Below, piece after piece: positions 7,345 through 26,903 of a stretch of DNA of 30,462 nt. Source of the DNA: a virus. Position numbers and translations under genes: made by a program. The stretch's first letter is position 1; the number at the start of each line of letters is the position of its first letter. The stretch is taken from positions 1 to 30,462 of IMG/VR virus record IMGVR_UViG_3300030382_001802, one strand, 5' to 3'. Below the pieces are notes generated by a model. The model searched no databases. It was not told the DNA's origin and was given only the letters and a program-made list of their open reading frames with translations.

Positions 7345-10300
7345 GTGCCTTTATTACCACAATTTAATCCATATATACCAGAGCAAGAGCTTTCCAAGGC
7401 TTTAGCTCAATATAAACAATCCCCAGATTCGTTCTCTGACAAGGACGTAGAAACCCTTAAAAATCATGCAAGGTACTATAATGTACCCTTTGCAACTGAT
7501 GAAAGTCGTCATCAAGGACGTATAGGCGGTCTAATATCCCAACTTGGCAGTGGTTTTACTGAGGGTTGGACTACATTCAATGTTTTTAAAGATAAGCCAA
7601 GGGACGAATATGAGGCTATAGCAAGGAATATAGGTCATCTTGCTGGTTTTGTAGGTTATATACCAGCGGCTCCATTTAAACTATTAGGTTTAAAAACTCT
7701 TGCTGCTGCGGCTAAGAAAGCAAAGGGTCGTTCTGTGCCTATGTGGGCAGCTAAACTAGCAACTGAAAAGGCTAGTAAAATAGTTGGCCCAGCCCTGAAA
7801 GGTGCTGTAATTGCCCGGGCAGGTGCTGTTGGTTCTGCAGCAACTTTTTTAAGTAAACCACTCGTAAAAGACATCGTAGAGGGAAGTTTTCATCTTGGTG
7901 TTGCAAGTAGTGTCTCAAGTTGGCAGGGTGGTGTCGATGAAATGATGAGGTCTTTTGTTGGTGGTGCTAAGACTGGTGCTGTCTTTAGAGGTATTGGTAA
8001 TATAATAAAAACAGATAGTGAGACTGCTAATAAAATCCTAAGAGGATTATCGTCGAGTATGTATATGGGTCTTCCTGCTACAGCTCAAGGAGCTACAACT
8101 CCAGAACAAGTCTATGAATATCTATTGGGTGCTTATTTTGGATGGAAAGAGATGCCCTATCATAGAAGAGCAGCTGGGAAGCATCTTAATAAGATGGTTG
8201 AGCAAAGAAAGACTGACCCAGAGATTGTAAAAGGATGGGAAGATTTAGATGCCAAGACCCAGAAGTATGCGAAAGAAAAGTCTATAAAGACATTTGGGAC
8301 TCGTGAAGAAAATCTTGCCATAGGTTATAAACTAGCAAAAGACCAAGGAGTTGACGTTGAACAGCAACAGGAATATGCTGAAAACTATGCTAATGAGGTC
8401 GAAGCAAGAGCAAGGGCAACTGCTGGACCAATGGCTGAAACTGATGAGAGCAAAGAGGCTGCAGAGGTTAATAAGGAAAGAACTGCCGAAACGGAGCGTG
8501 GTTCTTCTACAGTAGAGGGACAGGAAAATCTTGATACTGGCTCTGAACTTGTAGAAATACCCAGTTTTTCTTATCAAACAGAAAATTATGTTAGAAGAAC
8601 CTTTGAGGACATTTATGAAAAGGCACCATCAAAGTCTCAGAAGATAGCTGAGATAGCTGGTGACCTTGAACAAACTTGGGAAAGCATGATTGAAAGGGGT
8701 AGGGTAGACAATGTAAATCCTTCAGATGATATGGTTAATTATATCAATGAGACATATGGAAGAAAGTTAGATTATAATGAGGCTATCTTCTGGAGAAGTC
8801 TTGGCAATAGAAGGCTCAAAGAAAAAAGAGTTCCTTTACTCACTTGGCATAATGGAAGAATAGACCCCATTCTTGAAGACAAATCAGGAGCTGGTCTTGT
8901 TCCTACTAATCTTGCTGGTAATAGAAAAGCTTTGTATGAAGAACCAAAGATTATAGATAAGGTTTATCAGGAAGAATCTGGGACTACTAATTCAGCTTAT
9001 ATGGTATTAGACCATGCGATATTCAAAGGAAATAGAGGGATTGAAGAAGTTCCATTAACTGACCTTGATAAGCATTTCCGTAGGGAACTCCAAAGAGACC
9101 CGCAAATGAAAGAACTCTCTGAGAGTGGTAATTGGGAAGATAGGCAAATGTTCTGGCAGGCAGTCGATGCAAAGAAAGCTGCCTTTAATAGGGATAATAT
9201 GCTGAATATGGATGCTAAAGAAGGAGGTTTCTATTATTTCGGAGGAAGAGGAGATGCTGCTCGTCATTATTATGTAAGATATCATCCTAGGGTTGGAAAT
9301 ACTCCTGAAGCAGTTAATAAAAACCTTAATCTTATAAGAGATTTGTATGCTGCTAAAGGCATAATGAAGAATGGTGAAAGAATAAGCAATGCTGATTTTA
9401 ATAGGATGTATAGTCGAGCAAAAGGCAATTGGATGAAAGAGTATTCAGCTGATGATGGAAAAGAATTGGCTCGTATGGGTGAGATTTTTGATAAAGCCTT
9501 TGTATCTAATATGTTTTATGAAGTCAATATGAACGGATTACAGATTAATAGAGCTGGGCTTAGTAAGGTATTGGATGTTGGTTTTATAAATGATGCTAAA
9601 GATTTAAACAAGCGTTCTCAGATATGGCTTACCACGGGTATATCCTCAAACCCTGACTTTATAAATGCAAGATTAGTCGACTCCAAAGTTCCATTGGATA
9701 GAGAAGGAAATTATAATATTAAGATAGTAGAGGACTTTGATGAGAAACTTTATAGCGATGGTGCAATTATTGGGCATCCAGATGTAATCGATGCTATGAA
9801 CGCTGATTATGGTTTGCCAGATAAGGGCGGTACTGTAAAGTCCTTTATGGTTTCTCCGAATTCAAAGCATGGAGCTTTGCTTGGTAAATATATGATTCAC
9901 TCAGCTCCTAAGAATATACAGCTCTGGATGGAAAAACATAATGTTCATATGATAGTTCCAAGGTCAGCAGCGAAGCAGCTGGGTACAAGAGGCGAACTCC
10001 GAGTTAAAGATGGTAAGCCCCACAGAACTCTTGGAAGATTAACTTGGAAAGATGGTGGTATAGCCTTAGAGGGGACTAAAAAAGAAACGGATACCTATAA
10101 GGTTCATTCTTTCGACTTTAAAGGAGTCTTCTCTGAAAAGAACGATGAGCATACTCTCAGAGATGTAACTCTTCCTAAACAGATGCAGTCTAATCTAACT
10201 CCTTATACTTACAGTACTATGCAAGTTCCGGAAGGAAAAGAACGTGATGAGATAGTGGCACGAAATCGTGAAGTTATAGATGATATGTACGATACTCTTT

Positions 10301-13300
10301 CTGGGAGAGGTTTTGAAGGGGACGCAGAGATGAATAGGAAAGCACATTTATTAATGGCTGACCCAAAAAAGAATAACTATTTAATGGGGGAACTTGAAAA
10401 GGGGTTTGAAGATATTGGTGTTCCCACGCTTATAGAGGCTATGAAATCTCCGGGCAATGAAAGATTTGCTAATATGGCTTATAACAAGATTCAAAGGGCT
10501 AATGATTCTTTTATAGCAACTCTGGTTGAAGAAGGCGAAATGCGGTTTGAAGATGCTGACCTCTATCGGAATGAAGTTGCTGAACAGTTAAAGGTTCATG
10601 AAAAGCTTATGCAGTATAGTCCTGATAGCTTAGCTGGTATCTTTCATAAGTATGGAAGAGACTACAGAATGAACAGCACAAGGAATTATGTTGTTAAGAG
10701 GCTTACCAAGCCTAAGGTTGGTAATAGTTTCTCTTCAAGAATGCGTCCTTATGATATTGAATTACAAAATAGAACTGACCCAGAAGGGCCAACCTCTACC
10801 TTAAAAGGTGGTTTAGACCCAGTTATAAGAGATAAGGCTGCTGTTAATGTAGCAGATTTAATGTTTAAAAGAGTAACAAAAGCTAAAAAAACAGATAGGG
10901 CTGTTTTTAATGAAACAGATGTTCCTGTTAGAAATAATGTAAGTGGAACTGTTCATCTCGATAATATAATTAGTGGTGGAGGTATAGTTGGGAGAAAAGG
11001 TGTAAAGGGAGCTTATAAAGTTGAAAAAGTAATAGGTGATAAGTATAAAATATATGAAATTACTGAACCAGATATTATTAGTGGAGAAAATTTATTCTTT
11101 CTTGATGAGGGATTTAAGGATTTTGAACTTTATTCTACAGTCTGGGGTGGAAAAGGTAAACGACTTGAGGATGTCTGGAATCAATTTAATGGAGAAGGAT
11201 ATGGAGCTTCCCAAGAGAAAGTAAGAGAAGTATTAAGGACTGCCTTAACTCGTGTCCCTATGGACAGTATTAGCGGTTCACATATTCTGAACTTTGGAGG
11301 ATTTACTGGTGTTCGTGGTTATGGAGTTTTGTTGCATCCTAGGACAATGGATGCTCTTGGTGGTGCCGACCTTGATGGTGATAAAGCCTTTGGATTCTTT
11401 GGTTCTGAAAATTATGGCTTTAAAAAAGCATGGAAAGATTTATACCATAGTAATAAGAACGAAGGAGAAGGGTTAACCTCTGACCAATTAAAGGATAAGT
11501 ATCGAGAAACATTTGTTCATGGAATGGATGCTAAGGGAGAAGAATTTGGTGATGCCTTTCATCAGTATTCTCCTCATACTAGACTTAATATATCCGAAGC
11601 TGCCTTTGTTGGGAGACATAGTTTAGGCCCTACTGTTGTTAACCGTGCTACGCTTAATGCAGCATGGTCTGCTATTAGAGGAAGTAAAGATGGGTTCTTT
11701 GATTATGAAACTTCAATGAAAGGATTGACTGTTACTCCTAGTGAAGGTATTAGACCTGTCCCAGTAGATGACCCTGCAAAACCTTTAATGAGCAGTTTAC
11801 CTGTTAAAGGTAATACTCCAACAATGTTTTATACTGGCGTAGGCTCTAGAGATGTTCCTAAGGAAGTAAGAAGTGAAATGGCTGCTCTTGCAAGGGAATT
11901 GGAAAAAGCAGGATATACTTTAAGAACAGGAGATGCTAAAGGTTCTGATGCTGCTTTTAGGGCTGGTGCAAGAAAAAAAGAAGTTTATAAAGCATCTGAT
12001 GCTAATGACCGTGCAAGAGCAATAGCACAAGAAGTACATCCAGCATGGGGAAATTTAAAAAGTGATTACGTAAAAAACTTAATGGCTCGTAATACTTTTC
12101 AAGTATTTGGAAAGGACTTAGGATTACCTTCTGACTTTGCTGTAGTCTGGACTAAAGGAGGAGAAGAGAGTTATACACAAAGAACCTTTAAGACTGGTGG
12201 AACTGGTCAGGCTATAGAACTTGCCTCAAGAAGAGGAATACCAGTTATAAATCTTTCTAATCCTAATTGGCGTACTAAGTTAGATGCTGTGTTATCTGGT
12301 AAGACTGAAACTGAACTTCCGTCATATCAAGCTGAAGGAGCTATCAAAGTTAGAATGACTCCTTTAATGGATGCTGAGAATATGAAACTCTTTAGAGAGA
12401 AAGCAAGGGCTGCTATCAGCTTTGCGTCTGACCCTATGGATGAAGGGGGCTTAAAAAACAGGAATGTATTCTTTGATGAATTAGCTAGGCATCTTTTTAA
12501 ATGGGAAGTCTACGACCCCCGTACTGGTGAGATTATTAAAGACCTTACCAATAGTTATAATAACCATACCATAGGGTCATTTAATAAAAACAGAAGAACT
12601 GGTATTGTCAAGATAATGTCTGATATCAATAGCAAACTCTATGGTAAGAATGTTATGGAGAACAGAAGGTGGCAATTTTATGAGGTACAGGAAGCTCTGA
12701 GAGCGGGAGAAAAGATTGATGCTTTTGGTAGGAATAATATGCTTTCAAAGCTTGCCCATTCTTTAAACGGGGTTGATTATTCAGATGGAATATTTAACAG
12801 AGTCAACTTTAATAAACTGTCTGAGATGTATCAATCCCATGAAGAAGCAGTTAAAAGCGACCGATTTAGATGGTTAAAAGATATTCTTGGAAGAAAGAGT
12901 ATGTTTGTTAGGCAGGGATGGTTTACAGATTTTATTATTGAACATAAACTAAATACTGAAGAAGGAATGAGTAAGGCTACAAATCCTAATTTACCCGAAT
13001 GGAATAAAGTTAACAAAGCTTTGCAAATAAGATATACTAAGGGTAAAGACAAGGGTAGATTTATATTCGGGATAATGAATCGTAACCAATACATGATTAA
13101 AAATATACAGGAGCCGGGTTACAGAAGGTATGTTCTTAACCATATCCTGAAACAAGCAGAAGATTTTGTAGTAAATGATATTTCTGATATAGCAAGCATG
13201 AATCTCTTAAAAAGATATGGCGATGCTATACCGAGTAAAGCCATTGTGGAAGATATTATCCTCAAAGTGGAAGAACTTAAAAGACGTAGTTATCTTATGT

Positions 13301-16300
13301 CAAGAAAGATGGCTGGCAGACAAAGTATAGAGGATATGAAGCTAAATCCAGAAGAGAAACAATTGCTCCGAAATATTCGAAGAGGATTAGGAGCTGAAGA
13401 CGTTCCCGCTGAACAGTTATTTTCTCAGACTGAGATTGATAATCAGATTGTAGAATACAAACGGAATAAAAATTTAACTCCACAGGAGTCGGCATTTATG
13501 GATGCTTTGCTATTAGGTAGTGTTAATCGTGGTTTTCATAAGGCAATTGAACAGATTGATGCTACTCTGCCTAAAGAAGGCAGGTCTGAATTATTTGAAC
13601 AGGAATATCAGAAGTTAAAGAAATTTAAGGAAAATACTACTGTCTCCAGATTAGGCTTTGCAAGTAATGCAGTCGATAGGGCTGTTCTGGCTGATTATAT
13701 GAAAGAATATAAGACTCTATGGAATAAGTCTTCTGCTATAGACCCCAAAGTAAAGTCAACAGTCATTGGTGAATCAAAGGTAGCTGAAAAAGATAGGCCA
13801 ATAGTTGATGAAAATGGTAACACAGTTGAGGGCTCTATTTTAGAAACTCCAGAACAGGATAAGATGACACAGCAATATCTTGATGAGGTTAAGCCTTTTG
13901 AAGGCTTGCATGATGGAGAGCTTAAAGGAGAGTCTAAAGAAGTATATTACTCTATGAAGAGTCATCTTGAGCATTACCAGAACAAAGTTGGAAAAAACTT
14001 ACAGGGTATAGTAAGGGATGTTGTAGGTAAAGATTTGAATTCCATGAATCTTGAAGACTGGAGAACTATGGATAGATATTTTAAACAGGTACGGACTGGT
14101 ACTTGGTATCAAAGAATGTTTGATAAAGTCTTATCAAAGTCACCAGAGATTAAGAAAAGATATCATCATATGTTTCCTGAAGCAATCAATAGGGACATGA
14201 TGAGATACGAACTTGAGCTTATGGATGTTAGAAGACCCTATATTGATAAGGATGGTAATGAACAGATAGGCCCAGCTTTAAGAGCTACTGGTGTAGTAGA
14301 TATGTTGCAGAGGGGTGTTTACTCTTCTCAAGAGAATGCTATTAATATTGAACAGTCAGAGAAGAAAAAACTGAAAGAAACATTGAGACCCTATGTAGAC
14401 AGTATACCCGAGGGCAGAGCTTTATATAGGATGGCTGTGAGGATAAGAGAAGAAGCTGGCTTTGGTAATGAGCAGTTTGATTATGGTAAGTATCTTAAGG
14501 ATGAAGCATTAAAACAGGACTGGGAGTCGTTAAAAGATAAAGAATTTGGTATAATCCTTCCTGATGGAACAAAAGATAAGATGACAGGTCGTAAAATTGT
14601 TGCTAATATAAATGATATTATTACTGAACAGAATAAAAAGGTGCATAAATGGCTTGTTGGTGATGAAGAAAAGATTAATTTTTATCTTGATATGGATGAT
14701 GGTACGCATGCAGGTCTTGTAAGATTAAAGAATAGATTCTTGGAAGACTTAAGAGAAGCAGCACGTAAAAACGAACCCATGGATATAGAACTTGGTATTG
14801 ATGGACTTAATAGGATTGCAAAAAGAATCTTAATCTCTCAAGTTCCTGAAGCTGGAAGGGAAGAAGCACAGAAAGCTTTAAGAGAAAATCTAAAGATAGG
14901 TGAGACTGGTGAGTTGAATCCTAATTTTTATTTTCCCCATGTGAACTTTGACCGTGGTCAAGCAAGAAAAAGACTTCTTGAAGCATTAGAGAATACTCTT
15001 GATGATAGGTCTCTTGAAAGTAGAGATAGAGAAATCAAAGTCCAGAAACTTATCCATCATTATAAGCAGATGACTGGTGACTGGGTTTCAAAAGATGAGA
15101 TGGGTGACCGCTGGGATGAAATAGGTGACCATTTAAGTGCTATAGCCGATAGAAAGACTGCTTCCAAGGAATATATACAATGGTATAAGTCTGAAATGAA
15201 AGTAGGGAACCAGTATAGTCGTTCGAAAGACCCAATACCCGGATGGGATATTGACCCAGAAGCCTATGAATTTTATATGAAAAATATAAGTGACACTTTT
15301 TATCGTATTACTTCACAGATAGCATCCCGCTCATTAATTAACGATTGGTCACAGGATTTTTACTTCAGGTCTAAAAAAGACAAAAAGCTTACTAATTCAT
15401 GGAGAAACTTCCTTAGGCTCTATGTTCAAGATAGTATGGGTTATCCCAGCCAAATACCAGAAAAGGTCCTTAATGACCCAAAAATGAAGCTTAAAGGCAC
15501 ACCCTATGCATGGTTGGCTGATAGTAATGTCTTAGACAGGGTAAATAACATAGCTTCTAAGCTTGGGGTAAGACAGAGGAATTTACCCAAAGAATTAAGA
15601 GGCTATGGCTATAAAGACCTTTCTGCTTGGACTAACCTTGAAGCAAAGTACCAACTGGCTACATTACTTGCCCATCCTAAGAGCTCAATAGCTAACTTTT
15701 ATGGTGGTACTTCCATGACTATAATAAATACTGGTTGGGAGAACTTTAGGAACGCTAGAAAGATTGAATATTTATCTAATACAGTCAATCCTAAGTGGAA
15801 TCGGATGCAGGATGTAGAGGACTGGGTTACATCACATGGTGTTATTGAAGAGTTTCTACGTTATGAGGCCGATATTAACCCTCAAGTTAAAGGAGAGAAA
15901 TGGAATCGTTTCTTTGAGGATGCCATGGCTAAGATTAGGAAAGACCCTAATATGGATGATAGCACTCTGTATGAATTAGCTAAGAAGCATCGTTTAACTG
16001 ATAAAGCATTTCAAGTAGCCGCTTCTTTTATGCGTGTCCCTGAAAGAATTTTGCGTAGAGATGCCTTTGTAGCCCACTATTTACAGGCAAAAGAGAAATT
16101 TGGGGGTGCTATAACCGATTTTAACGACCCTTTTCTAGTTGAGATGGCTAAAAAAGGTGTTAAAGCTACTCAATTTCTGTATTCAGCTCCTTTTAGACCG
16201 GCTTTTGCAAGGACTGCTCTGGGTAAGGTACTTACAAGGTTTCAATTATGGGCTTGGAATAGTGTAAGATTTAGAAATCAGGTTTTACGTGAGGCAGAAG

Positions 16301-16794
16301 TTAGAGGTTGGAGAGAGGGAACTCCTGAGTTTAAAAGATTCCAAAGATTAGCCACTCATGACTTCTTTGTCACTGGAATGGCAAGTATATTTATGTATTC
16401 TCTGTTTGAGAATGCTTTACCAGCTCCATGGAATTGGTTCCAAGATACAGCTGACTTGTTATATGGTGACGACAAGGAAAGAGAAAGAGCTTTCTTTGGG
16501 GCTTATCCTTATCCATTTCAGCCTTTACAAATGGCGACGCCTCCTATTGCAAGACTACTTCCTCCGCTTTTTAAAGGTATGGTCACTGATGACTATACGA
16601 AACTTTCTAATTATTATGTCTGGACTATGTTTCCATTTGGAAGACTTGCTAAGGATATAGCCGGCCCGGGCGGAGTAATAGATAATCCTGTTTATGGTGT
16701 GTCTAAGTTGACTGGTATTCCCTATATTCAGTTTGCAAAACATTTGAAGTCTGCTTTTAAACCAGAAGAAGAAGAGGAAGAAGAAAGTGCCTGA
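7345..16794 (+). CDS. Giant multidomain virion protein with predicted DPBB RNA polymerase and SLOG domains
   Basis: A single uninterrupted frame of 3149 residues starting at GTG 7345; an in-frame TGA at 7336 limits the start. About residues 75-250 are Ala/Gly-rich and hydrophobic, as in ejected virion proteins. Residues 804-848 read SDGAIIG, then GTVK (K832), then GALLGK. At 1342-1346 is DLDGD inside LGGADLDGDKAFGFFG. This order, a DG...K block followed by DxDGD, is that of single-chain double-psi-beta-barrel RNA polymerases (YonO, QDE-1-like, crAss-like phage virion RNAP). Residues 1494-1643 (MFYTGVGSRDVPKEV to GIPVINLSNPNW) look like a SLOG/DprA-like Rossmann domain. The protein ends in an acidic tail (PEEEEEEES). 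It probably enters the cell with the DNA and transcribes early genes. The polymerase call rests on motifs alone; a polyvalent toxin-like or purely structural role is the alternative. Confidence 0.75.
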   Translation: MPLLPQFNPYIPEQELSKALAQYKQSPDSFSDKDVETLKNHARYYNVPFATDESRHQGRIGGLISQLGSGFTEGWTTFNVFKDKPRDEYEAIARNIGHLAGFVGYIPAAPFKLLGLKTLAAAAKKAKGRSVPMWAAKLATEKASKIVGPALKGAVIARAGAVGSAATFLSKPLVKDIVEGSFHLGVASSVSSWQGGVDEMMRSFVGGAKTGAVFRGIGNIIKTDSETANKILRGLSSSMYMGLPATAQGATTPEQVYEYLLGAYFGWKEMPYHRRAAGKHLNKMVEQRKTDPEIVKGWEDLDAKTQKYAKEKSIKTFGTREENLAIGYKLAKDQGVDVEQQQEYAENYANEVEARARATAGPMAETDESKEAAEVNKERTAETERGSSTVEGQENLDTGSELVEIPSFSYQTENYVRRTFEDIYEKAPSKSQKIAEIAGDLEQTWESMIERGRVDNVNPSDDMVNYINETYGRKLDYNEAIFWRSLGNRRLKEKRVPLLTWHNGRIDPILEDKSGAGLVPTNLAGNRKALYEEPKIIDKVYQEESGTTNSAYMVLDHAIFKGNRGIEEVPLTDLDKHFRRELQRDPQMKELSESGNWEDRQMFWQAVDAKKAAFNRDNMLNMDAKEGGFYYFGGRGDAARHYYVRYHPRVGNTPEAVNKNLNLIRDLYAAKGIMKNGERISNADFNRMYSRAKGNWMKEYSADDGKELARMGEIFDKAFVSNMFYEVNMNGLQINRAGLSKVLDVGFINDAKDLNKRSQIWLTTGISSNPDFINARLVDSKVPLDREGNYNIKIVEDFDEKLYSDGAIIGHPDVIDAMNADYGLPDKGGTVKSFMVSPNSKHGALLGKYMIHSAPKNIQLWMEKHNVHMIVPRSAAKQLGTRGELRVKDGKPHRTLGRLTWKDGGIALEGTKKETDTYKVHSFDFKGVFSEKNDEHTLRDVTLPKQMQSNLTPYTYSTMQVPEGKERDEIVARNREVIDDMYDTLSGRGFEGDAEMNRKAHLLMADPKKNNYLMGELEKGFEDIGVPTLIEAMKSPGNERFANMAYNKIQRANDSFIATLVEEGEMRFEDADLYRNEVAEQLKVHEKLMQYSPDSLAGIFHKYGRDYRMNSTRNYVVKRLTKPKVGNSFSSRMRPYDIELQNRTDPEGPTSTLKGGLDPVIRDKAAVNVADLMFKRVTKAKKTDRAVFNETDVPVRNNVSGTVHLDNIISGGGIVGRKGVKGAYKVEKVIGDKYKIYEITEPDIISGENLFFLDEGFKDFELYSTVWGGKGKRLEDVWNQFNGEGYGASQEKVREVLRTALTRVPMDSISGSHILNFGGFTGVRGYGVLLHPRTMDALGGADLDGDKAFGFFGSENYGFKKAWKDLYHSNKNEGEGLTSDQLKDKYRETFVHGMDAKGEEFGDAFHQYSPHTRLNISEAAFVGRHSLGPTVVNRATLNAAWSAIRGSKDGFFDYETSMKGLTVTPSEGIRPVPVDDPAKPLMSSLPVKGNTPTMFYTGVGSRDVPKEVRSEMAALARELEKAGYTLRTGDAKGSDAAFRAGARKKEVYKASDANDRARAIAQEVHPAWGNLKSDYVKNLMARNTFQVFGKDLGLPSDFAVVWTKGGEESYTQRTFKTGGTGQAIELASRRGIPVINLSNPNWRTKLDAVLSGKTETELPSYQAEGAIKVRMTPLMDAENMKLFREKARAAISFASDPMDEGGLKNRNVFFDELARHLFKWEVYDPRTGEIIKDLTNSYNNHTIGSFNKNRRTGIVKIMSDINSKLYGKNVMENRRWQFYEVQEALRAGEKIDAFGRNNMLSKLAHSLNGVDYSDGIFNRVNFNKLSEMYQSHEEAVKSDRFRWLKDILGRKSMFVRQGWFTDFIIEHKLNTEEGMSKATNPNLPEWNKVNKALQIRYTKGKDKGRFIFGIMNRNQYMIKNIQEPGYRRYVLNHILKQAEDFVVNDISDIASMNLLKRYGDAIPSKAIVEDIILKVEELKRRSYLMSRKMAGRQSIEDMKLNPEEKQLLRNIRRGLGAEDVPAEQLFSQTEIDNQIVEYKRNKNLTPQESAFMDALLLGSVNRGFHKAIEQIDATLPKEGRSELFEQEYQKLKKFKENTTVSRLGFASNAVDRAVLADYMKEYKTLWNKSSAIDPKVKSTVIGESKVAEKDRPIVDENGNTVEGSILETPEQDKMTQQYLDEVKPFEGLHDGELKGESKEVYYSMKSHLEHYQNKVGKNLQGIVRDVVGKDLNSMNLEDWRTMDRYFKQVRTGTWYQRMFDKVLSKSPEIKKRYHHMFPEAINRDMMRYELELMDVRRPYIDKDGNEQIGPALRATGVVDMLQRGVYSSQENAINIEQSEKKKLKETLRPYVDSIPEGRALYRMAVRIREEAGFGNEQFDYGKYLKDEALKQDWESLKDKEFGIILPDGTKDKMTGRKIVANINDIITEQNKKVHKWLVGDEEKINFYLDMDDGTHAGLVRLKNRFLEDLREAARKNEPMDIELGIDGLNRIAKRILISQVPEAGREEAQKALRENLKIGETGELNPNFYFPHVNFDRGQARKRLLEALENTLDDRSLESRDREIKVQKLIHHYKQMTGDWVSKDEMGDRWDEIGDHLSAIADRKTASKEYIQWYKSEMKVGNQYSRSKDPIPGWDIDPEAYEFYMKNISDTFYRITSQIASRSLINDWSQDFYFRSKKDKKLTNSWRNFLRLYVQDSMGYPSQIPEKVLNDPKMKLKGTPYAWLADSNVLDRVNNIASKLGVRQRNLPKELRGYGYKDLSAWTNLEAKYQLATLLAHPKSSIANFYGGTSMTIINTGWENFRNARKIEYLSNTVNPKWNRMQDVEDWVTSHGVIEEFLRYEADINPQVKGEKWNRFFEDAMAKIRKDPNMDDSTLYELAKKHRLTDKAFQVAASFMRVPERILRRDAFVAHYLQAKEKFGGAITDFNDPFLVEMAKKGVKATQFLYSAPFRPAFARTALGKVLTRFQLWAWNSVRFRNQVLREAEVRGWREGTPEFKRFQRLATHDFFVTGMASIFMYSLFENALPAPWNWFQDTADLLYGDDKERERAFFGAYPYPFQPLQMATPPIARLLPPLFKGMVTDDYTKLSNYYVWTMFPFGRLAKDIAGPGGVIDNPVYGVSKLTGIPYIQFAKHLKSAFKPEEEEEEESA

Positions 16795-19538: not shown

Positions 19539-20107
19539 GACCTTCTAACCCTCTTTACTTTCCTAATTTGAATTCCTTCTGGCATAGATTTACCAGCTCT
19601 ATCTGCTGATATTGCTGCATTACGAGCTTTTACCCTATCAATACTCTCCTTTATTTCAACCTTTATAAAGTCTTTAGAAACAGTTGTTGTATCTACATCG
19701 ACTGACCCATAAGTTTCATAAAGTTTATATCTTGCAATATCCGTTTCCCATACACCATCTGCATTACCAACTTCTTCTATTACCATAGGAAGTAAGAATT
19801 TATTTACAAAGTCTTTGAATTTTCCTATAGACCGTCTTCTCATCTTTAATCTTTCAATTTCTTCCTTTAAAGCATCAACTTCGGCATCAATAAGATGTTC
19901 TTTCCTTTTTACTTCTAGAACAACACTGTCAACCCGTTTAATTTTTATACGAACTTCTTTTTGTAGCTCAGTTTTTACTTCATCATATCTAGTAATATCA
20001 TCTTTGTCTAAATGGTCTTTACTTTTTACAAGATATTCCATTCTATTTTCATTGTCAATATAGTCACCGACAATATCTCTTGTTGTTCGTTTAGCTAGCA
20101 TTGGCAT
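19535..20107 (-). CDS. Gp157-like coiled-coil protein of the replication module
   Basis: About 190 residues. The ATG at 20107 is preferred because GGAGG lies at the right distance, while an ATG at 20119 overlaps that site. Residues about 35-95 form a long charged coiled coil (LIDAEVDALKEEIERLKMRR), followed by a small alpha/beta domain ending in SMPEGIQIRKVKRV. This layout resembles the Siphovirus Gp157 family, found beside phage SSB/recombinase genes. It overlaps the end of the primase-helicase gene, which is its natural context. The molecular role of the family is not well defined. The assignment rests on overall layout. Confidence 0.6.
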   Translation of the reverse strand: MPMLAKRTTRDIVGDYIDNENRMEYLVKSKDHLDKDDITRYDEVKTELQKEVRIKIKRVDSVVLEVKRKEHLIDAEVDALKEEIERLKMRRRSIGKFKDFVNKFLLPMVIEEVGNADGVWETDIARYKLYETYGSVDVDTTTVSKDFIKVEIKESIDRVKARNAAISADRAGKSMPEGIQIRKVKRVRRS

Positions 20108-21914
20108 TTTGTCCTCCATTAGCTTTTTTTAATCGGAAAGATGGAGTCCATTCTAGATAATGGTCTTTAAATAAATCACCATCACTATTCTTGAATAGCT
20201 CCAATTTTTTAATGCTTTGTTTTGCATCCCCAGTGATTCCAAGAACTTTCCGGGATGCATTTTCTATGGCACCACTTCCTTTTCCTGCATACATGTCCAT
20301 AATTTGTTCTCTTGAATAAGAACGGCTGATTTGAGAAATCTGGATTATTATTAAATCCATGTTAATAGCCATATTACTTAAATGATGAGAAATATATCTT
20401 ATGGATTCATATTCTCCACGAATGTGTTTGGGTGGTTCAACAAGGTCAATGTAATCTATGATAACAAGTCTAGGGTCAGTTTTTCGTATCATTTCAGCTA
20501 TTTGTTCTACGCTGGGACTAACAGTAGTCACATTAATATGATTTAGTTCAGTCTTATGAAATTGCCACAACTCTTTCCAGTATTTCATTATATCTTTTTT
20601 AGATTTGTCACTCAATATCTGAAGATGTCTCCGATGCATATACCATTCTGATAACTCAAGAGATAGGAACAGGGTTGGAATCTGTAATGTTGGGTCTATA
20701 ATGTCATTTTTAACATCATATCCCAACGCTATATTTTGAGCCAGAGTAGTCTTTGAAGAACCTGTTGCTCCAAAAATTGTTACTAGTTCGCCCGGATATA
20801 TATCACAATCTATATTCTCTGGTAATCCAAGTAGTTTAGTTAACTGAACAGTTCTTCCTGAAAAGTTAGTTTCCATTCTTTGCTCTAAAGACTTTTGTAA
20901 ATCAACTGCTTGTAAAACATCAATAGTATAGTCTTTGTTTTTATAATAGACACACTTTGGATTACAATTAGCAGCCATGATAACATCATTACATTTGTAT
21001 ACATAGCCTCTGTTGTAAGTATCCTCTATCTTTTTTAGAACAAGCTGTTCATCTAAAGCTTTGTTATTCCAATGCAAGATTGCAGCTTTAGCAGCGTCTG
21101 ATGTTAAACCAGACTTTCTATAGTGGGCTGCTAGCCTTAAAATAGTATTATTCCTAGAACCCTGTACCGGGCCAAGCTTATAGACAGTTTGCATACATGT
21201 AACATACTTTGAAGGTTCAGTTACACTTGCTAAAGTTCTAATATCAGGAACGTCAGTTTTTATATACTCTTCGAGTTCACCCTCTCCACCTTTCTCTTCC
21301 CAATCAGGGCCTTTACCGTTTAACCAGCTTGTCTGAATCCTATTTTTAGCTATTTTATGAATATATTCTACATCTTTTCCAAAAAGCTCTTGTCTTTCAA
21401 GAGGGATTTTATATAAACCAGTTTTTTGATTAAGACTTGCATCGCATCTAAGCATCGCTGTTCTCATATAGACCGAGGGGTCGATATAATCGAACATTTT
21501 TCTCATTGTTTCTTTTACTATATAAGGAAGATTTCTATTTTTCTCAAAACCGAAAACATCATTATGAATCATTACATGATAACCGGTTCCACTAAAATAT
21601 ATACAATAATTACTCTCTTTAGCTCCGTATTCCTCTAATTCATAGATAAATCCTCTTGTTGTATCCAGAGTAAATTCATCCGTATTCTGTCCCTTGTCAA
21701 TATCGACAGGAATCCAGTCTATTCCTCTTATCCCAAGAAAATCCTTGAGACTCCCCTTGATTTTTCTATAATCCATAGCGTCTTCATAATAAAGATAGGT
21801 GCTACGGTATACAGCTTGCTTTTCACCCTCATTGTAAATCAAATCGGGTAAAGTATCAAGGGGAATCAACAGCCCTCGTTTCCGTGGACTGCCGACTGCC
21901 ACCTCAATATACAC
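20091..21914 (-). CDS. AEP (PrimPol-type) primase fused to a RecA-like replicative helicase
   Basis: A 607-residue protein starting at GTG. Residues 65-170 fit an archaeo-eukaryotic primase core: PVDID (D71, D73), YFSGTGYHVMI (H113), FDYIDP (D145) and a conserved Arg region near 156. Residues 240-321 form a helical domain with C240, C308, C317 and C321 that could bind zinc or an Fe-S cluster, similar to primase C-terminal/PriL-like domains. The helicase half has Walker A GATGSSKT (382-389) and Walker B LVIIDYIDLV (D487), with a GKGSGAIENASR segment near the end. It should prime and unwind the viral replication fork. The start follows the previous gene's stop by 11 bases. Confidence 0.8.
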   Translation of the reverse strand: MYIEVAVGSPRKRGLLIPLDTLPDLIYNEGEKQAVYRSTYLYYEDAMDYRKIKGSLKDFLGIRGIDWIPVDIDKGQNTDEFTLDTTRGFIYELEEYGAKESNYCIYFSGTGYHVMIHNDVFGFEKNRNLPYIVKETMRKMFDYIDPSVYMRTAMLRCDASLNQKTGLYKIPLERQELFGKDVEYIHKIAKNRIQTSWLNGKGPDWEEKGGEGELEEYIKTDVPDIRTLASVTEPSKYVTCMQTVYKLGPVQGSRNNTILRLAAHYRKSGLTSDAAKAAILHWNNKALDEQLVLKKIEDTYNRGYVYKCNDVIMAANCNPKCVYYKNKDYTIDVLQAVDLQKSLEQRMETNFSGRTVQLTKLLGLPENIDCDIYPGELVTIFGATGSSKTTLAQNIALGYDVKNDIIDPTLQIPTLFLSLELSEWYMHRRHLQILSDKSKKDIMKYWKELWQFHKTELNHINVTTVSPSVEQIAEMIRKTDPRLVIIDYIDLVEPPKHIRGEYESIRYISHHLSNMAINMDLIIIQISQISRSYSREQIMDMYAGKGSGAIENASRKVLGITGDAKQSIKKLELFKNSDGDLFKDHYLEWTPSFRLKKANGGQNANAS

Positions 21915-21925
21915 AGACTAACCTA

Positions 21926-22531
21926 TCAGAAGGGTACTGACGGATTCGTAGAGGAAGGGGTGTTCCCCTCTTGAGCAGTTTCGCCCGTGTATTCTTTTAG
22001 GATGTTTTTCTGCCGTAGGAAGGCTACATAGGACTTTAAGTCAGTTATCCCTTTGGTCGTATTCATAACGATTTTGGGACAAACTCTGGTGTATGCCTTT
22101 CCTTTGTCGGCAATCCATTCCTTATATACATATATATGATATGGATATGTTTCACTGTTTAATGCGTCGTCTTTTAGGTGGTTTTCGTTTAGATAATCGT
22201 CTATTTTTGGGATGATTATACCATCAGCATCTTCCCATTCACCCTTTACATTGGGACCACCCTTGAAACCAATAGCGTCGAATACATAATATATTCTATT
22301 TAACAAAGAGCAACTTTTAATGTTACCATTGTCTTCTCTATCATAGGTTCCTTTGAGAGAATAGTTTACTGGGTATTGGCTGACTGGTACTCTAAAAACA
22401 ACATCTATAAAAATGTCTGCCCAATCGAATTCGTCCGAACGGTCAACATATTCAACTATTTGACCTTCCATGAAACCTCCGAATTGGCTTCCACTACTGT
22501 TAGATGTTGCACTCGGTCTAAACCTTGGCAT
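21926..22531 (-). CDS. Replication-module protein, possible ssDNA-binding protein
   Basis: A 201-residue product. ATG 22531 is chosen for the AAAAGGAG just before it; this start overlaps the ATPase gene end by 14 bases. It begins MPRFRPSATSNSSGSQFGG and contains a beta-rich middle (DIFIDVVFRVPV, YPYHIYVYKEW) and an acidic, Ser/Pro-rich, disordered tail ending in Phe. A disordered tail with a terminal aromatic residue after a beta domain is the layout of many phage single-strand binding proteins. Its position between a Sak4-like ATPase and the primase-helicase agrees. No signature motif proves it. Confidence 0.5.
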   Translation of the reverse strand: MPRFRPSATSNSSGSQFGGFMEGQIVEYVDRSDEFDWADIFIDVVFRVPVSQYPVNYSLKGTYDREDNGNIKSCSLLNRIYYVFDAIGFKGGPNVKGEWEDADGIIIPKIDDYLNENHLKDDALNSETYPYHIYVYKEWIADKGKAYTRVCPKIVMNTTKGITDLKSYVAFLRQKNILKEYTGETAQEGNTPSSTNPSVPF

Positions 22532-23399
22532 TAGATTTCTCCTTTTCATAGGTTGAGATTTGTTCTTTAATTGACTCATAGCTAAGTTCTAATGTTTTCT
22601 GTGCAAGAGGTTTTAACCTACTGCCTACAGTTCTTTCATCATAAGCTTGAAAAGATATATAATATCCTTTGCTATCTTTATCTGCAGTACAATAACCAAT
22701 TACATCAGCTTTTGCAGTAAGAGCATAGGCTAATCCTCTTGGCAAATCAGGAGAAAGTTGAACTTTACTATCCTGAATTTGAGTACTTTTAGAATGACTT
22801 ATTAATATTAAGGCTGCTCCTTTACTTTTTAAGAAACTTTGAAATCTTTTAACAATATCAATATTCCTGCGTCTTGCTTTACCCCAGTCTGCACCCCATT
22901 GTCCCTCACCCATAGCATCAATATTTAATTCTTTTGTTACTTCCTTTTCAATCCATCCATTTACTTCGTCAATCGTATCAATTACTACGGTATCATACTT
23001 CAGTTTATCCCAATCATCGTGAAGCCACATAAAGATTTCTTGTAAAGAATAGACTTCCATTGGTTTCCCTTTGTTTTTACCTATTCTATGATAGAAACCA
23101 CGTTTTTCTGGCGATACGATTTTGGTTTGGGGTTGACCTTTTTTATTATATACCTGTTCACCTTTTTCTAATACATTTTCTTCTGGCGGGTTTAGACTTG
23201 CGACAGTTACTGTATTAGCTCCATCTACAAAGTCTACGCCTAGGTCAGTATCTAATAATAAGACACCTTTTTGACCTTGTTCACTCCACCCACTGGCAGC
23301 AGTAGTTTTACCCGTTTTAGGTTGACCGATAAAGTACCAAGTCAACCCTCCGGGCATTACTGACCAATCTGTAGAGATATTACGGACTTTTATATCCAT
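22518..23399 (-). CDS. Sak4/RecA-like AAA ATPase (recombination)
   Basis: A 293-residue protein. It has the Walker A motif GQPKTGKT (residues 25-32), LLLDTD after the second strand, and Walker B YDTVVIDTIDEV (D141). A downstream ALILISHSKSTQIQD segment matches the sensor strand of RecA-type phage nucleotide-binding proteins (AAA_24, Sak4 group). These act in single-strand annealing or recombination and often sit beside SSB genes, as here. GGAG precedes the ATG. The start overlaps the E1-like gene by 20 bases, coupling recombination to the ubiquitin-like cassette. Confidence 0.75.
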   Translation of the reverse strand: MDIKVRNISTDWSVMPGGLTWYFIGQPKTGKTTAASGWSEQGQKGVLLLDTDLGVDFVDGANTVTVASLNPPEENVLEKGEQVYNKKGQPQTKIVSPEKRGFYHRIGKNKGKPMEVYSLQEIFMWLHDDWDKLKYDTVVIDTIDEVNGWIEKEVTKELNIDAMGEGQWGADWGKARRRNIDIVKRFQSFLKSKGAALILISHSKSTQIQDSKVQLSPDLPRGLAYALTAKADVIGYCTADKDSKGYYISFQAYDERTVGSRLKPLAQKTLELSYESIKEQISTYEKEKSNAKV

Positions 23400-24162
23400 T
23401 TATACTCCATTCATTATATGTTTTTACTAAATTATCTTTTTCAAGATTTAACGGCAATAGACCAGCCCAAATATAAGAATAATAGGGCTTATTCGCAACA
23501 CAATTGAACACTTGATTCACTCCTAATCCACCTATAATACTGCTAGCAAATATCGTATGTTTCATTGTACACGGAGCTGGTTCAATCTGGCTATCTGGAA
23601 CCCAATGACTCTCATATATCTCGTCAAAGTTTTTATTTTCGTGATTTATGAATCCACCGGGTCTATGAGTAATAGTAATCATTTCTAAACTTAAGGCACT
23701 CATTCTTAAATCAATGAAGAATTGATTAGATTTTTCTACTGGATGGTCTGCATTAACCCATGTTTCATAAGCTTCCATTCTTGTATCCATATTATCTAGA
23801 CAAGTTATTACTTTAGGACCTATTCCTTCTTTGGAACTCCATTTACCATCTCCACATATGAACTTCGTCTGAGCCGCTGAATGACCAATTACTATCTCAT
23901 GAGCTGTCTTAACTTTAGGAAGACCAACAAAACGAGTTGGATAAGTTGTGCTGCTTAAATTATGTGTTTCTAATTTATCATCATCCCAACCTATTATCTT
24001 ATCCCAACCCATTATGGCTAAAAGGGTGACAACAGTAGAACCGATGCCACCCAAACCTATAACAGTAATCTCATCCAATAGATTTTGATTAATTAAATCC
24101 TTATTTCTAAGGAATCTGTTTTCTAGAGAAGCCATTCTAATACCTATATCCTGTTCTGCCAT
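23380..24162 (-). CDS. ThiF/E1-like ubiquitin-activating enzyme
   Basis: About 260 residues from ATG 24162 (GGTGGA upstream); 24204 and 24135 are other possible starts. The Rossmann nucleotide-binding motif is VIGLGGIGS (34-42). It is followed by GWDDDKLETHNLS (D60, N68), the adenylation lysine in VGLPKVK (K83), and CLDNMDTR (D123, D126). These are the hallmark residues of E1/ThiF/MoeB adenylating enzymes. EPAPCTMKHT (C198) is the candidate thioester Cys. The paired CxxC zinc site of MoeB/ThiF is absent, as in several prokaryotic E1-like families. It should adenylate the C-terminus of the ubiquitin-like protein at 26694-26903. It overlaps JAB by 26 bases and the ATPase by 20. Confidence 0.85.
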   Translation of the reverse strand: MAEQDIGIRMASLENRFLRNKDLINQNLLDEITVIGLGGIGSTVVTLLAIMGWDKIIGWDDDKLETHNLSSTTYPTRFVGLPKVKTAHEIVIGHSAAQTKFICGDGKWSSKEGIGPKVITCLDNMDTRMEAYETWVNADHPVEKSNQFFIDLRMSALSLEMITITHRPGGFINHENKNFDEIYESHWVPDSQIEPAPCTMKHTIFASSIIGGLGVNQVFNCVANKPYYSYIWAGLLPLNLEKDNLVKTYNEWSINGYKSP

Positions 24163-24910
24163 ATGTTGTTCCACCAAAGATAGCGTATGGATTTTTAATT
24201 CCAATCTTTTCCATTTCGTCCGTCATCGTGTGATAGTTCATGGTATTTTGAGGATTTTTGAATTTACTCCACAAATCCTTACCCTGTTGCAGAACATCAT
24301 CTTCATAAATGATTTGGTTTTCCCAGTCAAATACTTCTTGATGTCCATAACCATATCCGGTTCGTGCTGGAACATAAGTAGTAGTCTTAACCTGTTTCTT
24401 TATTTCCTCTGCAATCTCAACCCATTCTTCAGGAGCATCAGGTATACCAGTCATTTCAACATCACCTTTAAATACTTGGTGATTTTTATACTGGTCAAGA
24501 TAAGAGAATGCAAATGCAAACTGCTTATCAGCTTTAGTAGAAACTACCAAGCTAGGATAAAATCCTTTCTCCGGTGCCATTTCTTTTAAAGTATCCGTAT
24601 CCGTTCCTGAAAAGAACGCTCCCATTGAATGATGAGAATGCAATAACCCTATGTAACATTTCTTTAGCTTAATATTTTCTTTGTATTTCTTTTTAAGTAT
24701 CTTTGCAAAATCATCCGAATCCCATTCGGTACTAGCTGTATCACCCAAATCTAATGGGTGAAAATCAATAAGCTGAAAATCTAATGGGAAATTATCATCA
24801 TCGGATTCTAATGTTAGATACCATGCTGGTCCAGACCATTCTTTAGTTGGAAATGCTCTGAGGAAATAGTTCACTTTGTCCAGCAGAGCTTGTGTAATTT
24901 GTAAGTTCAT
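24137..24910 (-). CDS. JAB/JAMM metalloprotease (deubiquitinase-like)
   Basis: A 257-residue protein with AAAGGAG before its ATG. The zinc site is perfect: Glu24 in KEWSG, then HSHHSMGAFFSGTDTD, with H91 and H93, seven residues, S101 and D104 (HxH-x7-SxxD). The catalytic domain spans about residues 1-150. The C-terminal 100 residues are Tyr/Gly-rich and unlike other JAB proteins. Family knowledge says such enzymes cut after the terminal residue of ubiquitin-like domains or remove conjugates. The start lies 68 bases inside the E2-like gene and the end overlaps E1, so the three are tightly coupled. Phage JAB proteins in tail operons have NlpC partners; none is seen here. Confidence 0.88.
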   Translation of the reverse strand: MNLQITQALLDKVNYFLRAFPTKEWSGPAWYLTLESDDDNFPLDFQLIDFHPLDLGDTASTEWDSDDFAKILKKKYKENIKLKKCYIGLLHSHHSMGAFFSGTDTDTLKEMAPEKGFYPSLVVSTKADKQFAFAFSYLDQYKNHQVFKGDVEMTGIPDAPEEWVEIAEEIKKQVKTTTYVPARTGYGYGHQEVFDWENQIIYEDDVLQQGKDLWSKFKNPQNTMNYHTMTDEMEKIGIKNPYAIFGGTTYGRTGYRY

Positions 24911-26606
24911 CAGAGAACTCCTTTGTTAGGTTTGTTAGTCTATCAATTTCCCGTTCATATGATTGTTTAATCCAGCCATCCAGAAAACGCTCAAAATACT
25001 TGTAATTATTCAGCATTTTTAGGATATGTGCATTATAATAATCATCTTTTTCCCACGGGTAATCTTCTTCGAATGTACGTTTATCAAATTCTTCAGGAGA
25101 ACAAGACCTAAAATTCTTTAAATATATTTCATTTATTTTATCAACATTTCCTTGAGTACCAGAAGATAACTTTTCTGCAATAATACGATAATTTACATCA
25201 CTCGATTGGAAATCAATAATCTCTGTCCAATGAATAATATCTAAGTCATGATTTATATAATTCCTTATACAGCTTTTTGTTCTTTGTATCAAATCCGTAA
25301 ATGAAAACCTTAAGTTAAGATTAGAGTAGCAATTTGAAAGAGGAAGTCTATTTTCTTTCAATGACCAATCGTTATTTTGTAGCCTCCAAATTTTTCCATA
25401 ACCAATCTCATCTAACAATTTACCCGAAGGTTTATGTACTTCTGTATTATTTACTTTGATACCATGAATTTCATTCAAAATATCCATAGCTCTTTTGTCA
25501 TTTATTTTCCTCAAAATTAAGTAATCCTGATATTTAGCAAAGAATGTATCCGTATAAAATCCTGTTTCATGTTTCATTTGCATAGCTAATCGTGAGACAT
25601 TATGATTCCAGTCTTCTAGACGTATTCTAGACCAATTTATATTCAGATACATAGAATCTATAACATCCCAATGAGCATTTCTTCTTCCTTTGAAAACAGG
25701 AAATCGATAGGTATGCCTATATTGACGATTTATATTCCAGAATGGACTATTTATTGTCCAAGTGGAGAGATATCCTTTTAAATCTTTCATAAAAACTTGA
25801 GCAAAACCAAATTCACTGTCTCTATTTAATCTTGATTGCCATCCGCCTAGACATGGTTCACCATTGGAAATATGAGGATGAATAGCGTCTATTAAATTAC
25901 AATGTTTACTTTTAACTGCTTTATTCCTACATAACCACTTGACTTTTTGTGTTATACTAGTCACTTCAGTTTCAAAGAAATGATTATCCTCTGGATTAAG
26001 CTGATAAAAGTTACCTGTCGGTGTTCTTCTCGAATAAGTTCCTCCGGGCCACATATAGGTTGGCCATATCTTTACTCTGTGTGAACCTCGAATACTAACA
26101 TTATCAAATCTTACAGCAAATCGACTCTCAAGAAGATTATTCTTTTGAACTATTATAGGATGTAGACTAGAAAGATACCAGTATACCTCATCTATCCCTT
26201 TTAGAAAATCCTCCGCTAAATGATAACCATAACAAGTTTCATAATATTCCTTATTTATCATAGCAGTACCCGCATCATCATCAAACATGGGCAATTCTAA
26301 AGCTATCTTTTCATAGGCATACTCAATATAATCAGCCCTGAATGATAGTTTACTATTTTTTCCAGATATGTTCCATGGATTCCAGAATGCTCTATAATAC
26401 TTTTTCATTAAACAGATAAATCCTGATACAATAAAAATGTTATCTTTTTCTTTATCAGTTAATTCCTTTGAAGATTTAGCAAATTCTTTTTGCCACTCTA
26501 ATAAAGGAGGCTTTGGAATAAATTTAATATAATTCTCAAAACTCAGTTCATTCATGGCATCTATGACAATCTGTTTATTACCGTGTATATCTTTGTTAGT
26601 GTCCAT
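24843..26606 (-). CDS. Large protein with an E2-like ubiquitin-conjugating motif
   Basis: A 587-residue protein with AAGGAG before the ATG. At residues 243-256 it reads HPHISNGEPCLGGW. This corresponds to the HPN(I/V)...G..CL active-site loop of ubiquitin-conjugating enzymes and to the HPHV..G..CLG form of prokaryotic E2 families, with C252 as the candidate catalytic Cys. The preceding 80 residues (RFAVRF, RVKIWPTYMWPGG) could form the beta-meander of the UBC fold. The N-terminal 150 and the C-terminal 300 residues are Trp/Tyr/Asn-rich and unrecognised, and may select substrate. It lies between the ubiquitin-like gene and the JAB and E1 genes. The motif and context agree; the fold is unproven. 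Confidence 0.65.
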   Translation of the reverse strand: MDTNKDIHGNKQIVIDAMNELSFENYIKFIPKPPLLEWQKEFAKSSKELTDKEKDNIFIVSGFICLMKKYYRAFWNPWNISGKNSKLSFRADYIEYAYEKIALELPMFDDDAGTAMINKEYYETCYGYHLAEDFLKGIDEVYWYLSSLHPIIVQKNNLLESRFAVRFDNVSIRGSHRVKIWPTYMWPGGTYSRRTPTGNFYQLNPEDNHFFETEVTSITQKVKWLCRNKAVKSKHCNLIDAIHPHISNGEPCLGGWQSRLNRDSEFGFAQVFMKDLKGYLSTWTINSPFWNINRQYRHTYRFPVFKGRRNAHWDVIDSMYLNINWSRIRLEDWNHNVSRLAMQMKHETGFYTDTFFAKYQDYLILRKINDKRAMDILNEIHGIKVNNTEVHKPSGKLLDEIGYGKIWRLQNNDWSLKENRLPLSNCYSNLNLRFSFTDLIQRTKSCIRNYINHDLDIIHWTEIIDFQSSDVNYRIIAEKLSSGTQGNVDKINEIYLKNFRSCSPEEFDKRTFEEDYPWEKDDYYNAHILKMLNNYKYFERFLDGWIKQSYEREIDRLTNLTKEFSDELTNYTSSAGQSELFPQSISN

Positions 26607-26650
26607 ACTGTTCTCCTTATGGTTGTTTTAGATTGATTTTGCAACGAGAC

Positions 26651-26668
26651 AGGGGGCTTTCGCCCCCT
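26651..26668 (-). terminator. GC-rich GNRA hairpin between the Ubl and E2-like genes
   Basis: Read on the - strand, AGGGGGC-GAAA-GCCCCCT is a perfect 7-bp stem capped by a GAAA tetraloop, about 25 bases after the Ubl stop and 45 before the E2-like start. No U tract follows, so it may be a partial terminator or an RNA-stabilising 3' end that lets the Ubl be made in excess over the enzymes. Confidence 0.5.
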
Positions 26669-26693
26669 TATCAAGTTTCACTGCCGAAGTAGC

Positions 26694-26903
26694 TTAGCTA
26701 CCAGACTCGACCTTGGCTTTCTGAAAAGAAACCAAGTCACCATCACGAAGAGTGTGATTAGCTGATACCGCAGATTCATCTACATAAATCTTGGTATTTT
26801 CCAATCCCATTCCCATGGTTGCGGCGATTTGAGCCGGTGTATCTGCTTCAGCTTCCTGAGGGATACCTCCGTTAGTGAACGATATCACACTGACTTTTGC
26901 CAT
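26694..26903 (-). CDS. Ubiquitin-like (beta-grasp, ThiS/MoaD type) protein
   Basis: A 69-residue protein with a very strong ribosome site (AGGAGG). The pattern is a beta-grasp fold: VSVISFTNG strand-turn-strand, helix PAQIAATMGM, then TKIYVDESAV and the ThiS/MoaD/ubiquitin-type ending TLRDGDLVSFQKAKVESGS. The tail ends Ser-Gly-Ser instead of Gly-Gly, so either the terminal Ser is cut off by the JAB protease or the E1 accepts a different end. It heads the gene order Ubl, E2-like, JAB, E1. It is separated from the E2-like gene by the strong hairpin. Assigned from size, tail pattern and context. Confidence 0.75.
   Translation of the reverse strand: MAKVSVISFTNGGIPQEAEADTPAQIAATMGMGLENTKIYVDESAVSANHTLRDGDLVSFQKAKVESGS

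Follow-up and report, generated by a model that had tools for sequence, protein, structure and literature searches.

Bil systems, which serve bacteria as a defence, encode a ubiquitin-like protein (Ubl, BilA), an E2 (BilB), a JAB protease (BilC) and an E1 (BilD), in that order, and their Ubl is ISG15-like, with two Ubl domains. The PRTRC cassettes of plasmids and ICEs constitute operon type 6d of Iyer et al. (2006; PMC1779556). In the ubiquitin operon of Caldiarchaeum subterraneum, a Ubl precursor is processed by a JAMM/Rpn11 enzyme from the same operon (PMC5654768, PMC6043591). Phages also encode a Ub-like domain together with a JAB peptidase in the TAPI-TAPK proteins of lambda and T1, but without an E1 or E2 and among the tail-assembly genes (PMC1779556). 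The locus described here carries genes that resemble all four types in a phage genome.

The locus lies in an IMG/VR virus record (IMGVR_UViG_3300030382_001802), and "the window" denotes the whole stretch of DNA that was analyzed, 30,462 bp. The first-pass annotation had proposed consecutive genes for a Ubl, an E2-like protein, a JAB protease and a ThiF enzyme, and all four open reading frames were confirmed at the coordinates given, on the minus strand, in the order Ubl-E2-JAB-E1 (Table 1). A 69-residue Ubl and an E2-like protein with C252 are both as it had described them, and the JAMM residues that it cited (E24, H91, H93, S101 and D104) are correctly placed. The E1 residues that it listed, K83, D123 and C198, are also correct; its numbers differ from ours because it counted from ATG 24162, and the same residues are K97, D137 and C212 when numbered from TTG 24204. 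The E1 start itself is uncertain (TTG 24204, ATG 24162 or ATG 24135), with one of the two ATG codons probably being the true one. Elsewhere in the window, an open reading frame for 3,149 amino acids (7345–16794) has no Pfam match.

Table 1. Coordinates of the cassette and its operon neighbors in the window
Feature	Coordinates	Strand	Remarks
Ubl, 69 aa	26694..26903	(-)	single beta-grasp domain; tail ...KAKVESG|S, S67-G68 invariant
E2-like, 587 aa	24843..26606	(-)	predicted UBC-like core ~155-300; H243-P-H245-I...C252-x-G254
JAB/JAMM metalloprotease, 257 aa	24137..24910	(-)	E24, H91-x-H93, S101, D104
E1/ThiF-type adenylyltransferase, up to 274 aa	23380..24204	(-)	GLGGIGS, K97, D137, candidate catalytic Cys C212
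Sak4-like ssDNA annealing protein / AAA, next gene after E1	22518..23399	(-)	phrog_124 4.9e-24
Conserved protein, no assigned function, same operon	21926..22579	(-)	family F2, 79 loci
Primase / DnaB-like helicase, same operon	20091..21914	(-)	phrog_19 7.9e-28, primase 1.4e-17; family F3, 77 loci

Two of the four proteins were recognized by their sequences. The E1 matched Pfam ThiF (2.8e-11) and, in profile searches, UBA5 (6e-14); the solved structure of Citrobacter BubCD was a weak profile match. The JAB protein matched Prok-JAB (Pfam, 4.2e-6); profile searches linked it to CSN5 (E = 0.0017) and gave a weak match with Rpn11 structures. The window Ubl on its own gave no solid match in sequence libraries, and the Ubls of five relatives matched the ThiS family (best 5.9e-4). 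A beta-grasp fold for this protein, which had been set as a check on the original proposal, was predicted with confidence: the AF2 model has a pLDDT of 88.6 and the order E-E-H-E-E-E, and VIA ranked TtuB (Z = 9.0) and MoaD (Z = 8.8) as closest in structure, ahead of SAMPs, ThiS and ubiquitin.

For the E2, neither the full-length sequence nor its core alone matched any known E2 when PDB and Pfam were searched by profile, so the assignment rests on a motif and a predicted fold of moderate confidence. A single site, HPH(I/V)-x5-C-x-G, is invariant in this protein, with helical, fast-evolving regions toward the N and C termini. The mean pLDDT of its AF2 model is 54, rising to near 71 over residues ~161–290 (core ~58–85) and to 82–85 over the active-site stretch 241–260. 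The top 13 VIA matches of the modelled core were all E2 enzymes (Z = 4.8–5.5), including UBE2S, Pex4, Ubc8, UbcH10 and Ubc13, and the aligned ranges ran to residue ~293–300. Foldseek alone returned nothing significant for the E2 model (E > 1). The UBC fold anticipated around C252 is thus supported by the VIA matches and limited by the quality of the model and by the Foldseek result, and we assign the 587-residue protein as a putative UBC-like E2 with moderate confidence.

Relatives were collected through the E1. A first search found 19 viral loci; an alignment-based query then gave 267 matching stretches, and the top 80 loci were retained. Among these 80, every non-duplicate IMG/VR locus whose contig extends 3.3 kb or more beyond the E1 on its upstream side (36/36) has the order Ubl-E2-JAB-E1, and loci with less upstream sequence lack only the genes that lie past the contig end. 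In reference phages, tblastn found 74 records for the E1 and 74 for the JAB protein, and all of the E1 records are crAss-like/Bacteroides or Flavobacterium phages. The order is the same in all four reference genomes NC_055884, NC_055883, NC_055832 and NC_031904 (Steigviridae, Flavobacterium Fipvunavirus). A primase is found nearby in the reference phages, and their Ubl carries a C-terminal extension. Existing annotation there calls the cassette genes only "ThiF", "metalloprotease" or "hypothetical", with the E1 also named "thiamine biosynthesis protein". The DAC15 E1 located 46 viral loci in a further scan; all four genes are present in order in 42 of them, and contig ends truncate the remaining 4. 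The marine and crAss-like groups align well as profiles for the E1 (6e-71) and the JAB protein (7e-54). The cassette is not peculiar to the window virus; it is common to at least two large phage groups, from the sea and the human gut. That these are tailed phages is concluded from a major head protein on a related contig; a search of the related contigs for Terminase_6N was negative.

A scan of 84,980 bacterial and archaeal genomes found one relative only, on a contig of 3.7 kb (L094) belonging to a Spirochaetia MAG. This contig looks like a fragment of a crAss-like phage, its ThiF gene preceding the same small genes as in the crAss-like loci, and was apparently binned with the bacterium. The scan was limited by its pattern and does not prove that bacterial homologues are absent.

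The active-site residues are strongly conserved. In the window's group (best 80 loci), G-x-GG-x-GS, K97, D137, R142 and C212 of the E1 are kept in 60/60 sequences, apart from one G-to-S change in the glycine loop; the five JAMM residues in all 56–58 sequences that reach the site; H243, P244, H245 and C252 of the E2 in all 45 that do so, one fragment being misaligned; and S67 and G68 of the Ubl in 33/33, their entropy being zero in an alignment of 26 sequences. The invariance of C212 is partly circular, since one search pattern (used in the alignment-based query and in the bacterial/archaeal scan) contained that cysteine. Search bias does not account for the conservation of the E2, JAB and Ubl, which entered the sample solely through their position near the E1. 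When the window E2 was compared by tblastn with 50,697 phage records, no match was found, as the crAss-like E2s are too diverged; these were identified from their position and an HSH...PCLG motif. Their site reads H-S-H...C-x-G (first His in 41/42, second His in 42/42, Cys in 43/43), and profile alignment placed the active sites of the two groups in register, albeit weakly (E = 0.0065). The crAss-like E1s keep the cysteine in 46/46, and the JAMM residues are kept in the 41–42 sequences that extend far enough to include them, again with one misaligned fragment. Across dozens of non-redundant relatives, the catalytic residues of all three enzymes are essentially invariant down to ~25% identity, and this invariance, together with the unbroken order of the genes, goes beyond chance. 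The first-pass annotation would have been refuted had relatives failed to conserve C252, C198 (C212 here) and the JAMM residues; they always do. Some crAss-like genes are split: group I introns (Rfam RF00028, 66–70 bits) were found in JAB genes (L102, 3585–3844, and L119, 4271–4483) and in an E2 gene (L129, 2243–2474), and the JAB gene of L120 is similarly split, as is the Ubl gene of L100, neither with an Rfam match.

The C terminus of the Ubl is distinctive. In the window it reads Ser-Gly-Ser, a conserved single glycine with one trailing variable residue, and throughout its family the invariant Ser-Gly is followed by 0 to ~11 variable residues. The position after G68 is highly variable or absent, and two variants end exactly at the glycine. 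The crAss-like Ubls have K-(K/N)-I-x-S-G followed by more than 100 residues, with a glycine equivalent to G68 in 42/42. Whole Ubl profiles of the two groups give no significant alignment, yet both have the K-x-SG tail. An invariant Ser-Gly with variable trailing residues is the pattern expected if the glycine is the working C terminus and the remainder is removed. The JAMM enzyme encoded next door would be the natural candidate for this trimming; cleavage is inferred by analogy with the action of CsRpn11 on a Ub precursor (PMC6043591). The extensions themselves vary. That of uncultured phage cr126_1 (L021, 1428–2354) contains a ribosomal protein L7/L12 C-terminal domain after the Ser-Gly (Pfam, 5.1e-12), and a short end motif resembling S-x-x-E-I-x-x-M-F is commonly shared among crAss-like extensions (L098–L143), where it could be a docking peptide.

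The cassette had been placed within a replication operon, and the neighborhood of its relatives bears this out: in nearly all of them, Sak4 or a different small protein comes after the E1, and then the ~209-residue conserved protein and the primase/DnaB-helicase. Sak4 adjoins the E1 in most relatives; in L031–L037, L042–L043 and L060–L061, an unrelated family of 122 residues (F16) takes its place. The genes differ in their rate of change. Between the window and its relatives L007 and L008, respectively, identity is 96% and 90% for the Ubl, 88% and 86% for Sak4, 76% and 72% for the E1 and 68% in both cases for the JAB protein, and falls to 44% and 47% for the E2, where it is lowest outside the core. 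All four cassette genes are under purifying selection, with dN/dS of ~0.1–0.16 for the Ubl versus 0.31–0.36 for the E2. The pairing of a conserved tag with a rapidly diverging E2 would be in keeping with an E2 whose targets change; this is an inference.

Of the described systems, Bil/Bub has an equal set of activities, and the order Ubl-E2-JAB-E1 is that generally known for Bil. The phage cassette differs in lying in a core replication operon with no defence-island context, in its large, separate E2 with helical regions of its own and, relative to Bil, in a 69-residue Ubl with one beta-grasp domain instead of two. A resemblance to the PRTRC gene order had also been suggested, and the relative order does agree, but clear profile homology extends to the E1 only (hhalign against PRTRC ThiF, 97.3% probability, 1.9e-11, reaching the C-terminal Cys region). 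Both cassettes have separate Ubl, E2-like, JAB and E1 genes, with protein F inserted in PRTRC; both belong to mobile elements, and both Ubls have residues trailing the glycine. The upstream His, invariant in the phage E2, is missing from that of PRTRC (PMC1779556), and the plasmid locus contrasts with the phage replication operon. Identity with a PRTRC cassette was rejected. NCBIfam scores fell far under the PRTRC cut-offs (15.3 versus 144.75 bits for ThiF and 13.4 versus 101.8 for A; B and C were unlisted), and PRTRC B (E2) and C (Ubl) gave no profile alignment with the phage proteins (0.3% and 0.5%). A search of the record for PRTRC B was negative, with the control silent too. As the first-pass annotation had stated, no ParB-like or other PRTRC gene is present among the neighboring proteins scanned, which include no ParB-related, E or F protein. 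The C. subterraneum operon shares a precursor Ubl with residues past the terminal glycine (PMC5654768, PMC6043591); it differs in that no RING E3 is seen in the phage cassette, which sits in a phage genome and has a single Gly after Ser.

Among the general features of a conjugation system, the cassette has a beta-grasp modifier with a conserved C-terminal Gly, an E1 adenylation domain (GxGGxGS, K, D) with a catalytic Cys, itself partly pattern-selected, and a JAMM protease with E, HxH, S and D; a UBC-fold E2 with a catalytic Cys is only putative. The Ubl tail, SG versus the usual GG, counts against this reading. There is no biochemical evidence; even so, we consider it likely that the four genes form a complete, phage-owned, reversible Ubl-conjugation module that is core to the replication operon. 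The Ubl would be made as a precursor, from which the JAMM protease, where needed, would remove the residue(s) after Ser-Gly and expose the glycine, a step that is inferred. The E1 would adenylate this glycine and carry the thioester on C212; the residues are observed and the chemistry is inferred. The Ubl would then be handed to C252 in the HPHI-x5-C-x-G site of the E2, where the motif is evident, the fold moderately supported and the thioester relay presumed. The size and divergence of the E2 flanks suggest that these rapidly evolving regions may select the target, in which case no separate E3 would be needed. Deconjugation may also fall to the JAMM enzyme, again by inference. The likeliest target would be either a replication/recombination protein of the phage or a host protein encountered at an early stage of infection, between which the sequence does not decide.

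Other readings use the same genes differently. Hosts use Ubl-type conjugation against phages (PMC10097602), and host tags could be removed by a JAMM enzyme; the module might hijack or antagonize a host Ubl defence (Bil, CBASS Cap2/Cap3), for instance by stripping host tags or blocking the host E1/E2. We regard this as unlikely. One component would suffice for an antagonist, yet all four are intact with their catalytic residues; the Ubl belongs to the phage and is strongly conserved, and the genes keep a fixed location among those for replication instead of occupying a variable accessory locus. A role in shielding the infected cell from competing phages, as Bil does for bacteria, is still harder to accept. 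The agreement with the gene order generally known for Bil speaks for it, but the cassette is present, between replication genes, in every examined relative that has room for it, whereas defence cargo is usually patchy, and the Ubl here has a single domain.

Least credible, in our judgment, is that the Ubl serves as a ThiS/MoaD/TtuB-like thiocarboxylate carrier for nucleic-acid or cofactor modification. TtuB and MoaD being its best structural matches and the "thiamine biosynthesis protein" annotation of the E1 would suit such a carrier; a UBC-like E2 with an invariant Cys and a JAMM protease, however, are not needed in such a pathway, and of the window proteins that were scanned, none was a rhodanese/sulfurtransferase partner.

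We found no description of the phage module in the literature searched, including the main crAss-like genome papers (preprints and most subscription papers were outside its scope). Ubl conjugation in bacteria is known mainly as an anti-phage defence; here the full, intact set is carried by phages, beside their replication genes, which suggests that some phages tag proteins within their ordinary life cycle. We lean, with limited conviction, toward a broader proposal: that several large groups of tailed phages, among them cultured crAss-like phages of gut Bacteroides and Flavobacterium phages, use their own Ubl modification, with a processed precursor and with target choice residing in a rapidly evolving E2, as a normal and probably required step in replicating the genome or taking over the host. 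Carrier phages have cultured hosts in Bacteroides intestinalis, B. thetaiotaomicron and Flavobacterium psychrophilum, so what these phages tag, and why, is directly testable.
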